From: Fidelibacterota bacterium
GTDB taxonomy: Bacteria > Fidelibacterota > Marinisomatia > Marinisomatales > UBA1611
Length of the DNA: 64,000 nt
Direction of reading: 5' to 3'
Assembly: GCA_018658715.1 (NCBI GenBank)
Contig: JABHUQ010000090.1
Location: forward strand, 1-64,000
Shown: piece by piece, positions 11,863 through 20,580 of the stretch
Numbering within the stretch: the first letter of the stretch is position 1
How the letters are laid out: the number at the start of each line of letters is the position of its first letter
Translations under genes and position numbers: made by a program
Notes under the pieces: generated by a model
Database searches by the model: none
What the model was told of the DNA's origin: nothing
What the model saw: only the letters and a program-made list of their open reading frames with translations

Positions 11863-13042
11863 AAAAACTATGGGATAAAGGATATGATTTAAATAAAACA
11901 ATAGAATCATATACTGTAGGAAACGACCCTATTTTGGATAAACAACTCATTTATTATGATTGCATTGCATCTATTGCTCACACAAAAATGTTGGGCAAGA
12001 TGGGTTTGTTAACCAAAACAGAAGCGAGGTATTTAGTTCAAGAATTGAAGCACATCATAGACCTTGATAAAAAAGGTGAATTTCCAATTGCTCAAGACCA
12101 AGAAGATTGCCATACAGCCATTGAAATGTTTCTTACAAATTCATTAGGTGATGTGGGTAAAAAAATTCATACAGCACGATCAAGGAATGATCAAGTTCTA
12201 ACTGCACTTCGGCTTTACTACAAAGATCAAATAAATAATATTAATCAGCTAATTGAAGGGTTGATATATTCTATTTCTAGTTTCACCAGTGATCATGGGA
12301 ATATTCAGTTTCCAGGATATACTCATATGCAAAGGGCAATGCCATCTTCATTTGATTTGTGGGGAACCGCATTTTTAGATTCAATGAAGGATAATCTTTT
12401 ACTATTAGATACAGTCAATAAATTGGTAGACCAATCCCCACTGGGAACAGCCGCGGGATATGGAGTACCTTTAAATATTGATCGAGAATTCACAGCAAAA
12501 GAATTAGGGTTTTCTTCTGTTCAAAATAATTCGGTTTATACCCAATTTAGCCGTGGAAAATTTGAAATTTCTGTCTTACATGTATTATCTCAAATTATGT
12601 TAGATCTAAATAAAATAGCATCAGATTTAATTTTAATCAGTATGTCTGAATTTGGATATGTTGAAATACCAGACGAATTTTGTACTGGCAGTTCAATCAT
12701 GCCACAAAAAAAAACCCAGATGTACTGGAGTTACTTCGGGCAAAGTATCATGTGGTTTCTTCATTTGAGTTTCAAGTTTCACAGCTTACGGCAAATCTTG
12801 TATCGGGATATAATAGAGATATCCAACTCACAAAAGAACCAGTTATGCGTGGATTCTCAATAACAGCAGAAAGCATAAAAATAGCAATTTTGCTTTTTCA
12901 AAACATTTCAGTAAATGAACAAAAATGTAAAGATGCCATGACTGATGAATTATTTGCAACTGAAAAGGTGTATGAGCTGGTTAAAAAAGGTGTCCCATTT
13001 CGAGATGCTTACTTAAAAATTGCTAAAACGATAAATAAATAA
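11859..13042 (+). CDS. argH: Argininosuccinate lyase, split over two overlapping frames (11859-12863 and 12680-13042)
   Basis: N-part has [17 protein letters not shown] and [21 protein letters not shown] ends the first frame and [15 protein letters not shown] continues in the -1 frame. The switch is at the 9-A run 12706-12714. Confidence 0.92.
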
Positions 13043-15428: not shown

Positions 15429-15614
15429 TTAATTTCGTCTATCGGTTGTATCTCTTCTCGGATTGTCGCGACGATCTTTAGGCAGCCTGTTATCTTTTTT
15501 TCTTTTTTCTTTAATATCAGTAAAGGTGGGTATTACCCGGCGATCAGAATCGCGCTGCTCTTTTTTACGACGATCGTTTCCTCGGCGATCTTCACCTATT
15601 CGATTGTTACTCAT
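15429..15614 (-). CDS. 61-aa highly charged DRR-repeat microprotein
   Basis: ORF track frame 15429-15674; internal ATG at 15614 chosen because the upstream part overlaps a terminator hairpin. MSNNRIGEDRRGNDRRKKEQRDSDRR...PKDRRDNPRRDTTDRRN. Confidence 0.6.
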   Translation of the reverse strand: MSNNRIGEDRRGNDRRKKEQRDSDRRVIPTFTDIKEKRKKDNRLPKDRRDNPRRDTTDRRN

Positions 15615-15638
15615 ACCTTTATTATTCCGTAAATAAAA

Positions 15639-15667
15639 TAATAACCCCGGTAAAACCGGGGTTATTA
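15639..15667 (-). terminator. Intrinsic terminator after the TerB-like gene
   Basis: Perfect 13-bp stem TAATAACCCCGGT-aaa-ACCGGGGTTATTA; T-rich on the minus-strand exit side. Confidence 0.75.
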
Positions 15668-15694
15668 AGTGCATTTTGTTAGTGTGAAAAGTTA

Positions 15695-16126
15695 TTAGCC
15701 TTTAAAATCAACAAATAATGTTGAGTCTGTTTTTACTAAGCTAACTTTATCTGTCATTTCCATAACACTGACAGATTCTTCAATCATCGCCATTTCATTC
15801 TCATGAATGAAATCATCAGCACGAGCGATATAAGCTAAGTTTTTAACTAACTTAAATCGATCTTCATCTGAACTAAGTAATGATTTTAAAGAAGTTAATG
15901 ATTCGGTGTACTGAGCAAATCGTGCACTTTCACTACCAAGTTCAATAAACTTATCAATGACAGATGCTTCTATAGCATCATAATCATCATCAGATAGGTC
16001 CGGTGCCATAACCTTAACGTTCCCTCGCATTGCTTCTTTTTCTGAATCGTCTACTTCTCCATCTGCTAAATATGAGACACAAACAAATGTGTAGACCAAA
16101 TCATGATTTTGACTCCAATTTCCCAT
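15695..16126 (-). CDS. TerB-like (tellurite resistance B fold) protein
   Basis: VYTFVCVSYLADGEVDDSEKEAM...LAYIARADDFIHENEMAMIEESV: two acidic helical repeats typical of TerB-like proteins. Confidence 0.65.
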   Translation of the reverse strand: MGNWSQNHDLVYTFVCVSYLADGEVDDSEKEAMRGNVKVMAPDLSDDDYDAIEASVIDKFIELGSESARFAQYTESLTSLKSLLSSDEDRFKLVKNLAYIARADDFIHENEMAMIEESVSVMEMTDKVSLVKTDSTLFVDFKG

Positions 16127-16410
16127 GACTTTCCTTTACAATAGTCTTTGTCGCAATTTCCTCGAAAATAATAGGTAGGTTTGCGACGTACACCCACACT
16201 AAAATTCGTGAAAACTTACTCTGTGTTTTATAGAAGGTCAAGATTTCTCCTAAAACACTGTTAAAATATTTATTCTTCCCATTACGAAGGTTTGTTGCTT
16301 CAATCTTTAGTCTATTGTAGCTTTTATTTTATATTCACGCATTAGAATAAAAGACCATGCATAAATATATCAAAAAAAACAATTAATTTTCGCTAACAAA
16401 GACTCAAACT

Positions 16411-18663
16411 ATGAAAAACATTAATACTGCCCTTGTCAAGTTCAATAGCTTACAATTCAATTATAGAACAATAATTTCTTTTTCCATTGTTCTGCTGGGT
16501 ATGCTATTTGTCGATTATGCATTTCATGTGAATTTTCCATCTATTGTTAATTTTTTTGATAATCGCCTAAATATTTCAATTTCCGATCATGAGAATATTG
16601 ATTTAGGATTTGCGCCTGAAATATGGGGCGGGGTATTAGCTATGGTTTTAGGGACATTAATCATTGTTATTGCAATTGCAGCAGAATCATCTCCTAAACT
16701 AATGGATTTATTTGTTAAAGATTGGTTAAGCCTAAGCTACGTTTGGTTTCTTATACTTTCATCGCTTCATGCTATTTTTATTATGTTTTATGTTGAACCA
16801 TTAAATCGCGTATCAAGTGTAGTGCTAAATACATATGTATTTTTGTTTATTGCATCTATTTTTGCCCTTCCATATATATTTTATATACTTCTTTATTCTA
16901 AAACAAGTAATGTAGTTAAAACTATTTCTGAAATCATAAAGACATTTATCCATAAAATGAAAACACCTAGAATAAAATCAGCTATGGGAAATGATCTGGG
17001 GATTGTAGATGAATATCAAAAAGAAATCATGAGTTCTCTTGATCAATTAGATGATTTATTAGCTTTTACAGAATTCAAAGAAACCCAAACAAATATTATA
17101 AGAGAAATAAGTACTATTGTTCAATTATACATTTCTGAAAAAAACGATTTCAATCCTGCATTTTTTAATCTTACATCAACTATTCGAAATAATGCCACAT
17201 TTCGAACTTATACTGAATTACAATACCAAGAAATGGCAGATACTTCCACATTTTATGAAACAAAAGTATTTCGCCTCTTGGGGAATGCATATATCAAAAT
17301 GATTGAAAATGACAGATTTGATATTGCTTCCCTTATCCCAGCAGAATTAGTTGATATTGGCAAAACATGTATCGGGGCAAATGATAATACAATTATGGAT
17401 AATGTTAACATCCGCTTCAACACACTTTTCAGGTTTGCTATTAAACACGCATATAAAAATAATGAACCTAGAAATTTATATAATCTTGCCTTTCACTATT
17501 CAAATATGATACAAGAATACATAAAAGTTGATCGTGTTGATATGGCAAAATATTGCTACGACAAATTCAAATTTTATGCGAATGATATTTATAAAAATGC
17601 AGAGTCAAATCCATCATTATATTTTATTGTTGATACACTAACATTTGAATTAAGAAAATGCCAAGTGCTCATCCATGAAAAAGGATGGAACGATGAAGAC
17701 CAGTTAGCTTTACTTGACCTTATCCTACAACTTGATAAACCACCTGGTTATTCCAAAGATGGCGTAGATAAAGGTATTTTAGGTGGTAATAACGGTACTC
17801 GACGAATTCAAATTGGTCTTGCATTATTTTACTTATCCATGAAAAAATATGATTTTGCTGAAGCTATTGCTCAAGATTATTTAGATGATTTAGCTTATTT
17901 TGATGAAAAAACATTTAAACAAAATGCAAATACTCAATGTTTTTTGTTATCTATTTTTGGGCCTACGTTTTGGGAAGATACGGATCGTGGAAACTTAAAT
18001 ATTTATTTTGCCCCAGAGAAAGACCAACTAGACCCATTTAAGGAATTATTATTCAGTTTAATGGATAAACGCATTGAAGTTCTAGAGCGTGATGCGCAGT
18101 TTTTATCTTTAGAGGTCGATAAACTTATGCAAAAACGACTCAAGCAAGATGGATATTTAAATGAAGCTGATAAAGAACGAATGGAGGATTTACAAAGAAA
18201 AATATCTGCACGAGAAAAACCGGAAGATGATAAACAAATCACATGGACTGAAAGCAATGACATTCTTTACTCTTTGTTATGCATTGCATTTTTTGCCGAT
18301 CAAGAAATAGATCAGTCTGAAAAAGGTATTATTTTTGATCGATTTGGACAATTTGTGCCTAATGTTTCAGATGATAGTTTTAATTCCGTTTTTGGTATTA
18401 CTACACAAAAATTCATTGAACTAGGAAATGAAGATACTAGGCAAAACCAGTTTGATCAGTCCATTCAAACTATTTTTGAAACACATAAAGATGATTCAGA
18501 CTATTTAATCAATTTGATTAAAGCATTTGTTGATATTGCAAATGCAGATGAATTTATACATGAAAATGAAATCAGTTTAATTCAAAATGCTATCCAAGTA
18601 CTAAACCTAAATATTGAATTAAACAATCCTAAATCCGGAGAAAAGTTAACAATTAAAAAGTAA
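16411..18663 (+). CDS. Membrane protein with N-terminal TM helices, large middle region and C-terminal TerB-like domain
   Basis: About four hydrophobic segments in residues 20-170. C-terminus LYSLLCIAFFADQEIDQSEKGII...AFVDIANADEFIHENEISLIQNAI closely parallels the neighbouring 143-aa TerB-like protein. Confidence 0.7.
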   Translation: MKNINTALVKFNSLQFNYRTIISFSIVLLGMLFVDYAFHVNFPSIVNFFDNRLNISISDHENIDLGFAPEIWGGVLAMVLGTLIIVIAIAAESSPKLMDLFVKDWLSLSYVWFLILSSLHAIFIMFYVEPLNRVSSVVLNTYVFLFIASIFALPYIFYILLYSKTSNVVKTISEIIKTFIHKMKTPRIKSAMGNDLGIVDEYQKEIMSSLDQLDDLLAFTEFKETQTNIIREISTIVQLYISEKNDFNPAFFNLTSTIRNNATFRTYTELQYQEMADTSTFYETKVFRLLGNAYIKMIENDRFDIASLIPAELVDIGKTCIGANDNTIMDNVNIRFNTLFRFAIKHAYKNNEPRNLYNLAFHYSNMIQEYIKVDRVDMAKYCYDKFKFYANDIYKNAESNPSLYFIVDTLTFELRKCQVLIHEKGWNDEDQLALLDLILQLDKPPGYSKDGVDKGILGGNNGTRRIQIGLALFYLSMKKYDFAEAIAQDYLDDLAYFDEKTFKQNANTQCFLLSIFGPTFWEDTDRGNLNIYFAPEKDQLDPFKELLFSLMDKRIEVLERDAQFLSLEVDKLMQKRLKQDGYLNEADKERMEDLQRKISAREKPEDDKQITWTESNDILYSLLCIAFFADQEIDQSEKGIIFDRFGQFVPNVSDDSFNSVFGITTQKFIELGNEDTRQNQFDQSIQTIFETHKDDSDYLINLIKAFVDIANADEFIHENEISLIQNAIQVLNLNIELNNPKSGEKLTIKK

Positions 18664-19227
18664 TTAACGAGTCAGAGCGAAAAAGAAGGCTTGAGTTAAA
18701 TTCCCAATATCTTGGCTTGCCGTCGCTAAATTTTCAACGGCCGCTTTTGCAACTTCATAATAAACCGGGCCACCAATAGATGGATTTTCATCAACCAGTT
18801 TTGTAAAGTCCGCAAGTTTTAATATTCCATATTTTAATGGTGTTGTCGCATGAACATGGGCAGTGCGAATCGCATCATCAAGTACTAAAGAAAATTCACC
18901 AATCCCAAAGGCTGGAACTTGCACAACAAAAACTGTCGCCTCTGATATCGGTTCAGTTTCAGGAGGCGGATCTGTTGTTTCTAAACGAATAATAGATTTT
19001 CTAGACATAGTAAAGCCACTTGCTGCTTTAACCATAATATCTTTTGATACTTCTACTTGCCCCTGAAAAACAAGTAACATAGTATCTCCAGTATCCCCTT
19101 CTTTAAATAAACGTTTTTTAGGTTTACATTCTTTTAAAGTGACTTGCTCTGCAATTTTAGCGCACATTTCTTCTGGCAATTTGGAGAAATGATTAATTTT
19201 TTTAATTTGTTCTTTTGTTGGATTCAT
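18664..19227 (-). CDS. Cyclic-nucleotide-binding-domain-like protein
   Basis: FSKLPEEMCAKIAEQVTLKECKPKKRLFKEGDTGDTMLLVFQGQVEVSK...FGIGEFSLVLDDAIRTAHVHATTPLKYGILKLADFTKLVDENP. Confidence 0.75.
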   Translation of the reverse strand: MNPTKEQIKKINHFSKLPEEMCAKIAEQVTLKECKPKKRLFKEGDTGDTMLLVFQGQVEVSKDIMVKAASGFTMSRKSIIRLETTDPPPETEPISEATVFVVQVPAFGIGEFSLVLDDAIRTAHVHATTPLKYGILKLADFTKLVDENPSIGGPVYYEVAKAAVENLATASQDIGNLTQAFFFALTR

Positions 19228-19230
19228 TTA

Positions 19231-20580
19231 TTAACTCAATACTAATGCTTGATGTTTTGCGTCTACAACATAGTCGTCTGACGGATTAATTTCTACAATG
19301 ATGTGTTCATCACTTGTTAGATTAATTCCAGCACTATCTAGCTGTTCTGTAATCATATCTCTAATGAGGGGACTGCCGCTTTCTCCCATCTGGTCTTCTA
19401 GGCTAAATCCCGATTTTCTAATTGCATAACCAATAAGCAATTGCTTATGTTTGAATTTATAGTAAGCTGATATTTTATTATGCGCAAGGCCAACTAACCC
19501 TTTTGGAATGGGGGCTACGCTAATACCTTTATTATTTGCTTCTTCATTTATGAGTTCATCAAGAAGTTGCGGGACACCAGGGTCCGTAATGTGTCTTGCT
19601 AATAGATGAGGGACATGATTATCAGTGAAAACAATTTCATTTACATTTGCTCTTTGAAGATGAGAAATATTTTCGCCATTAAAAACGTGAGCAACAACAC
19701 GTACACTTTCAGAAATAGCTTTTGCAGTTAATGTTGTTAATACAGTCTTATCTTCATCAGGTGCTTCATTTGGTAGAAGCCCCGAATTATCTGGTAAGAC
19801 TATAAACATACCAGCCTGTTCAAGAAATGCTTTTCTAAGAACGGCCTCCTGAGTAAAATTTTCTGATAAATGTGTTACATCTAATCGTTGGAGTCCTGAA
19901 ATAGCACGTTTAATTATTTCCTGATCTGTTTCATTAACCAATATTACAATTGGATTAGCTTCTTTATTTTCATCAAGTAATCTTAAAACGGACGGTACAA
20001 ATTGATTCCATCCAGCAATGATTAAATGACCTTTAAATTTATTTTCATCCAATATTTCATCTCCTTTTAATCTTGCGGCGACTAATACTGAAGCCACGGC
20101 TCCACCAAGTAATGTCACAATACCAAAATCTAATAACATAATTATTATAGCTAAAAATTTCCCAAAGTGAGTAACAGGACTTACGTCTCCGTAACCAACA
20201 GTCGTAAATGTAACAACAGACCACCAAAATGTATTATAAAATGTATCTGAAAAAGATGGGTCATCTTTGCCAATATGACCACCTACAGATTCTTTGAATG
20301 TATCGTATTCTACAATAGTCAATACGGTTGATGAAATTACGAGCATAATAATTGCCCATAACGCGTATCTAAATAAATCATTATTTAAATAGGCACTTTT
20401 TAAATAAGATGGTATAGATGTTAATTTGCTTATATGTTTTTCTTGAAGATGCTCTTCAGGAATTTCATCATCGAATGGTTCAACGGCTTCAACCTCAGCA
20501 AGCGCGTTTAATTGATCGAACATATCTTTATTTGCTTTTAGCAAATCGTCTATTGGTTTATCGTATTCTTTTTCTTCCAT
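19231..20580 (-). CDS. Potassium channel with pore loop and RCK/TrkA-N-like domain
   Basis: FYNTFWWSVVTFTTVGYGDVSPVTHFGKFLAIIIMLLDFGIVTLLGGAVASVL, then HLIIAGWNQFVPSVLRLLDE. Confidence 0.9.
   Translation of the reverse strand: MEEKEYDKPIDDLLKANKDMFDQLNALAEVEAVEPFDDEIPEEHLQEKHISKLTSIPSYLKSAYLNNDLFRYALWAIIMLVISSTVLTIVEYDTFKESVGGHIGKDDPSFSDTFYNTFWWSVVTFTTVGYGDVSPVTHFGKFLAIIIMLLDFGIVTLLGGAVASVLVAARLKGDEILDENKFKGHLIIAGWNQFVPSVLRLLDENKEANPIVILVNETDQEIIKRAISGLQRLDVTHLSENFTQEAVLRKAFLEQAGMFIVLPDNSGLLPNEAPDEDKTVLTTLTAKAISESVRVVAHVFNGENISHLQRANVNEIVFTDNHVPHLLARHITDPGVPQLLDELINEEANNKGISVAPIPKGLVGLAHNKISAYYKFKHKQLLIGYAIRKSGFSLEDQMGESGSPLIRDMITEQLDSAGINLTSDEHIIVEINPSDDYVVDAKHQALVLS

Follow-up and report, generated by a model that had tools for sequence, protein, structure and literature searches.

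A potassium channel and a stand-alone cyclic-nucleotide-binding domain (CNBD) protein, and not the TerB proteins encoded beside them, are the core of a five-gene block between proA and carB in the window, as we call the whole 64,000-nucleotide stretch of DNA analysed here. The window's family belongs to Candidatus Neomarinimicrobiota (SAR406), an uncultured marine phylum whose MAGs are the nearest relatives with a name, and the channel-CNBD pair is the old core of the block, to which TerB, a membrane-anchored TerB protein (memTerB) and a DRR microprotein are a later addition specific to the window's family. Judging from the sequences and their arrangement, we consider it probable (roughly 0.6) that the channel and the CNBD protein are two subunits of one cyclic-nucleotide-gated K+ channel complex, with the TerB genes as an added input.

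The five ORFs that the original prediction had listed (DRR, TerB, membrane-TerB, cNMP-binding protein and K+ channel) were all found where it had placed them. The features of the block are as follows.

15429..15614, minus strand: DRR microprotein, with a probable length of 61 aa counted from MSNNRIGEDRR (the 81-aa ORF as listed begins at 15674)
15640..15666, minus strand: terminator- or attenuator-like hairpin separating terB from the DRR gene, -19.9 kcal/mol
15695..16126, minus strand: terB, soluble TerB-domain protein, 143 aa (Pfam PF05099, 37.6 bits, 3.2e-9)
16127..16410, no strand: divergent terB/memTerB intergenic region with conserved AAGGTCAAGATTTCT (alignment of 18 regions)
16411..18663, plus strand: memTerB, 750 aa, four TM helices and a C-terminal TerB (AF2 model, homologue alignment)
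18664..19227, minus strand: cnbd, stand-alone cyclic-nucleotide-binding protein, 187 aa, with its start codon 3 nt past the channel stop codon
18667..18711, minus strand: conserved C-terminal CNBD tail NLTQAFFFALTR, of the KLTTAFSLIL type in most of the phylum
18862..18909, minus strand: phosphate-binding cassette FGIGEFSLVLDDAIRT with E111 and R121 (homologue alignment)
19231..20580, minus strand: kch, 449 aa, K+ channel of the MthK-like 2-TM type with an RCK domain (Pfam Ion_trans_2 and TrkA_N)
19294..19422, minus strand: RCK C-lobe insertion, about 43 residues, approximate limits (channel alignment)
20380..20580, minus strand: extension of about 65 cytosolic residues at the channel N-terminus, confined to the window's family

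Elsewhere in the window, argH is frameshifted at a poly-A run (between QKK and NPDV, window 12690-12720) relative to an intact homologue in L034, which reflects either an assembly error in the homopolymer or a genuine lesion.

The channel-CNBD gene pair across the phylum

A profile made from the window family's CNBD alone was searched against 245 genomes of the phylum. Outside the window's family its matches were stand-alone CNBD proteins some 170 aa long, and in 70/70 of the loci examined, chosen by the CNBD profile only, a channel from a single subfamily of RCK K+ channels lay directly upstream on the same strand. Gaps between the two genes ranged from -47 to 167 nt, with a median of about 7 and often a 4-nt overlap. 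For the reverse test, 20 channels of the subfamily were taken from genomes where the family CNBD profile had given no match, and a CNBD was encoded directly downstream of all of them (20/20). This reciprocal pairing across the phylum bears out the earlier suggestion of a cNMP/K+-channel signalling pair.

The neighbours of the pair differ from locus to locus, with valS in many, and elsewhere an FKBP-type gene, a Na/Pi transporter or, in the window, carB. The pair is kept in several gene contexts, and is thus not merely a case of frozen synteny, although the 90 loci have a common ancestry and therefore stand for far fewer than 90 independent events. Pore and CNBD are separate ORFs in all 90 loci, the longest open frame listed for the channels being 487 aa. 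Taken as sequence evidence, the pairing of the genes could reflect a shared pathway rather than a shared complex.

The channel and its RCK insertion

The window channel scored well above the Pfam cut-offs for both Ion_trans_2 and TrkA_N, with its TVGYGD filter at 20185-20202. The kch profile matched MthK at E=5e-36, and MthK also gave the top Foldseek matches of the channel model (E=4e-17), which confirmed the predicted TVGYGD K+ channel with an RCK-like domain. MthK, a Ca2+-gated archaeal channel, is thus its best match in sequence and fold, and shares with it two TM helices, the TVGYGD filter and an RCK gating ring. Unlike MthK, however, the channels described here have a constant CNBD gene partner, an RCK C-lobe insertion of about 42 residues and, in the window's family, a long N-terminal extension.

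The insertion was 41-43 residues long in 83/83 complete CNBD-linked channels and in 5/5 members of the window's family. The same site holds 4 and 12 residues in two unlinked channels of the phylum and 5 in MthK, the MthK sequence used agreeing with the residues aligned in the profile match. Helices were placed at the insertion in the AF2 channel model, which is a modest one (pLDDT 70, pTM 0.40). Among the plasmid matches listed for the channel, the alignments end ahead of the insertion. The N-terminal extension was 59-69 residues in five members of the window's family, compared with mostly 4-12 in linked channels elsewhere, and the family's channel also has a larger turret.

The CNBD protein and its likely ligand

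The window CNBD scored 26.3 bits in Pfam, close to the cut-off of 27.5, yet all 21 aligned homologues matched PF00027 (best 3.5e-16), and the CNBD profile matched the CNBDs of PKA-R, PKG, MloK1, SthK and HCN; the call of a stand-alone cNMP-binding domain was thereby upheld. The ligand-binding E111 was kept in 105/106 CNBDs and R121 in 106/106, and in the C-terminal tail L177, T178 and A180 were kept in 105/106. The tail and the RCK insertion of the channel may be read as signs of a physical partnership.

In the window's family the CNBD is remodelled, with an extra loop before the cassette, a 2-residue insertion within it (FGIGEF as against FGEM) and the changed tail, and the 2-residue insertion could alter nucleotide binding there. 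Both members of the pair are thus remodelled in the same family that has the TerB and memTerB neighbours.

The CNBD proteins are 167-187 aa long and have only a short tail beyond the CNBD, leaving no room for a DNA-binding domain, and no helix-turn-helix family was found in Pfam scans of them. A Crp/Fnr transcription factor was ruled out, as the C-terminal helix-turn-helix is missing. CNBD matches on plasmids (Ilyobacter, Moraxella) were also set aside, as they lack an adjoining K+ channel.

The genome of the window encodes eight class III cyclases and one diadenylate cyclase. The conserved Glu and Arg together with the eight class III cyclases make cAMP or cGMP the likely ligand. The strongest class III cyclase match of the genome (G000:C78:24341-25877) is convergent with a channel bearing a TVGFSE filter, and a partnership of these two was set aside, as no cyclase adjoins the related channel in G018. 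Across the phylum there is a second conserved channel of the RCK type, about 330 aa long and without a CNBD partner (L252:4922-5914, which is the G000:C78 channel; L253, L254 and L258), and its filter reads TVGFSE, TVGFGE or TVGFNE in place of TVGYGD.

The TerB proteins and the DRR gene

The two TerB calls of the original prediction fared differently. The soluble protein was well supported at 37.6 bits (cut-off 24.4), carries conserved ADGEVD and ARADxFIHENE motifs and is divergent in sequence from memTerB; its profile gave no meaningful match among PDB sequences. The C-terminal TerB of memTerB (PF05099) stood at the threshold, with 22.4 bits as a protein and 24.9 in the genome search against the same cut-off, and a TerB match was obtained in 11/23 memTerB homologues. 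The two TerBs of the block matched each other at about 31-35% identity, and the genome's other TerB matched neither of them in the same search, which suggests that the fused domain of memTerB came from the neighbouring terB.

The AF2 model of memTerB (pLDDT 78.5) places four TM helices at the N-terminal end, ahead of a large cytosolic part that is helical throughout and a helical TerB at the C-terminus, in agreement with the membrane protein of about four TM helices and a large middle region that had been predicted. The TM helices fall at about residues 19-161 and the all-helical cytosolic domain at 165-515, followed by a beta-hairpin with an invariant FWEDTDRGN (520-530), a coiled coil (537-600) and the TerB (614-735). 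A Foldseek search with the model returned just generic helical-repeat matches with poor TM-scores and no PDB fold worth naming. Residues 75-187 weakly matched DUF2254 (PF10011; 0.0047, and 1.8e-4 for the best of 23 members), but membership of that family was ruled out at 16.2 bits against a cut-off of 28.8. The likeness to DUF2254 is thus a weak one of the membrane part, and the remainder of memTerB has no named relative.

A short Arg/Asp-rich ORF of the DRR type lies downstream of terB in 19/20 related family loci, so that the predicted microprotein is taken to be a real gene, although its listed extent (15429-15674) is probably too long. The strong hairpin lies downstream of the longer start, which makes the internal start at MSNNRIGEDRR likely. 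Strong hairpins of similar structure and differing sequence were present at the matching place in most of 16 relatives, and the hairpin may set the ratio of terB to DRR. The divergent terB/memTerB intergenic region is 237-329 nt long in relatives, and its best-conserved element, AAGGTCAAGATTTCT (window 16210-16250), contains a -35-like TTGACC. Read by eye, this region would hold a promoter for terB, with the -35 at 16237-16242 and the -10 at 16213-16218.

How the TerB genes are linked to the pair

Analysis of gene neighbourhoods found the block well beyond its own genome, conserved across one Neomarinimicrobiota family, where memTerB, TerB and DRR adjoin the channel-CNBD pair in 21/22 testable genomes. 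In the 21/21 genomes with both genes on one contig, memTerB and cnbd are convergent neighbours, -6 to 81 nt apart. Four memTerB genomes lie outside the 21: in G007, G009 and G014 the contigs end near or within memTerB, and in the exception, G002, memTerB and cnbd are on different contigs. In G002 memTerB is followed, where cnbd would be expected, by some 600 nt of unrelated sequence rich in repeats (L040:8206-8841). The outer flanks of the block vary: one side carries pro or menA/pqqC-like genes, and the opposite side carB or a sodium-solute symporter.

Related genomes carry parts of this arrangement. In a sister group (L049-L055) memTerB is 600 aa and lacks the TerB domain, and the soluble TerB is kept, as is the channel-CNBD pair where the contig is long enough. 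In family f9 the memTerB core stands alone beside der, again without TerB. In G177, a genome of another family (L045 / L127), terB-memTerB lies beside a different K+ channel and the usual channel-CNBD pair is found elsewhere; this is a single case, in a genome with 8% contamination. The same terB-memTerB genes are also flanked by a gene resembling a Na/Ca exchanger (named by eye), an ion-transport neighbourhood.

These observations bear on a reading of all five genes as one envelope/ion-stress module, with memTerB and TerB as the sensor and the channel complex as the effector. The conservation of the block in the window's family despite its differing outer flanks speaks for such a module, as does the second K+ channel beside terB-memTerB in G177. 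However, the channel pair forms a complete unit outside the window's family without any TerB genes, and in f9 the memTerB core occurs without linkage to the channel. Grouping the five genes as a single module, as the original prediction did, is correct for the window's family and not elsewhere in the phylum, and the sensor-effector reading we regard as possible but doubtful. That reading overlaps the mechanism we favour, and for the window's family it may hold in part.

A proposed mechanism

In the complex that we favour, pore and RCK gating ring would be contained in one polypeptide and the cyclic-nucleotide sensor would be a separate subunit on the ring. The probable docking elements would be the roughly 42-residue insertion of the RCK C-lobe on the channel side and the conserved C-terminal tail on the CNBD side, a contact that we infer. 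Binding of cAMP or cGMP from class III cyclases to the CNBD would then change the conformation of the ring, the pore would open or close, and K+ flux and membrane potential would be set in this way. The window's family would have gained memTerB, with its four TM helices, helical scaffold and TerB, as a further membrane partner, which together with the soluble TerB, and perhaps DRR, might provide a second input such as a divalent cation or the state of the membrane. That memTerB supplies this second regulatory input is a guess, prompted by its position, membrane anchoring and TerB domain. More generally, we infer the docking, nucleotide identity, gating direction and roles of TerB, memTerB and DRR, and offer them as predictions.

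The two proteins might instead be co-regulated and act separately, with Ca2+, Na+ or a nucleotide as the channel's own RCK ligand and the CNBD reporting cAMP or cGMP elsewhere. RCK domains do bind ligands unaided, Ca2+ in MthK and ATP/ADP in KtrA (PMC6957272). However, 90 loci show the pairing in both directions, the CNBD protein lacks any other domain that could serve as an output, and the channels possess the extra C-lobe element just when they are linked, as judged against two unlinked cases; we consider separate action rather improbable. It is very unlikely that the genes are accidental neighbours held together by slow rearrangement. The carB and pro genes too stay adjacent in part of the window's family, but pair and block remain intact while both outer flanks change, and kch and cnbd often share those 4-nt overlaps. 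The least credible explanation is a Pycsar-like abortive anti-phage system in which a cyclic nucleotide opens the K+ channel, in line with the phage-response module of the original prediction: PADLOC did match Pycsar proteins and TIR effectors, at best with 1.1e-7, but these matches are limited to generic CNBD segments, the cluster unlike Pycsar has no adjacent nucleotide cyclase (PycC), it lies between housekeeping genes and looks vertically inherited, the pair is conserved phylum-wide, and no copies of memTerB or CNBD were found in viral contigs, nor of memTerB on plasmids, so that with neither cyclase neighbour, mobile context nor viral copies this reading was rejected.

Comparison with known systems

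The closest parallels to a CNBD linked to a K+ channel are SthK, MloK1, LliK and the CNG/HCN channels, which have a similar phosphate-binding cassette. In these the channel subunit itself contains the CNBD, and a C-linker may be present or absent (PMC6093708). Here, in contrast, the CNBD forms a protein of its own, and the pore belongs to a 2-TM RCK channel; with separate ORFs in all 90 loci, the defining feature of CNG/HCN channels, a CNBD in the chain of the pore, does not apply. In TrkAH the ligand-sensing cytosolic subunit is encoded apart from the membrane subunit. The same is true of KtrAB, whose ligand is ATP/ADP (PMC6957272). However, the separate subunit of KtrAB and TrkAH is the RCK ring, whereas here RCK stays with the pore and the CNBD is the separate subunit. 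The block resembles Ter systems (TerZABCDEF) in combining a TerB-domain protein with a TerB domain on a membrane protein, but that membrane protein is not TerC; neither TerC nor TerD was found on searching the whole genome, and a tellurite/Ter system was therefore rejected.

No description of such a channel-CNBD pair was found in the literature searched, which took in few subscription papers. As coverage outside Neomarinimicrobiota consisted of plasmids and phages together with this limited literature, a claim of novelty may prove too strong.

Implications

CNBD gating and RCK gating are two main routes by which cytosolic ligands control K+ channels, and the CNBD channels used for comparison all have it fused to the pore. 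If our main reading is true, the pair would be a natural two-gene version in which the sensor could be added, removed or swapped in vitro, and direct tests of a CNBD driving an RCK ring would become possible. Cyclic nucleotides would then have a concrete effect assigned to them in this uncultured marine phylum, where class III cyclases are plentiful, and a membrane protein with a TerB domain could be placed in a physiological setting away from Ter operons. The pair looks like a cyclic-nucleotide-gated channel split into two genes, and the TerB/membrane block looks like an added regulator.
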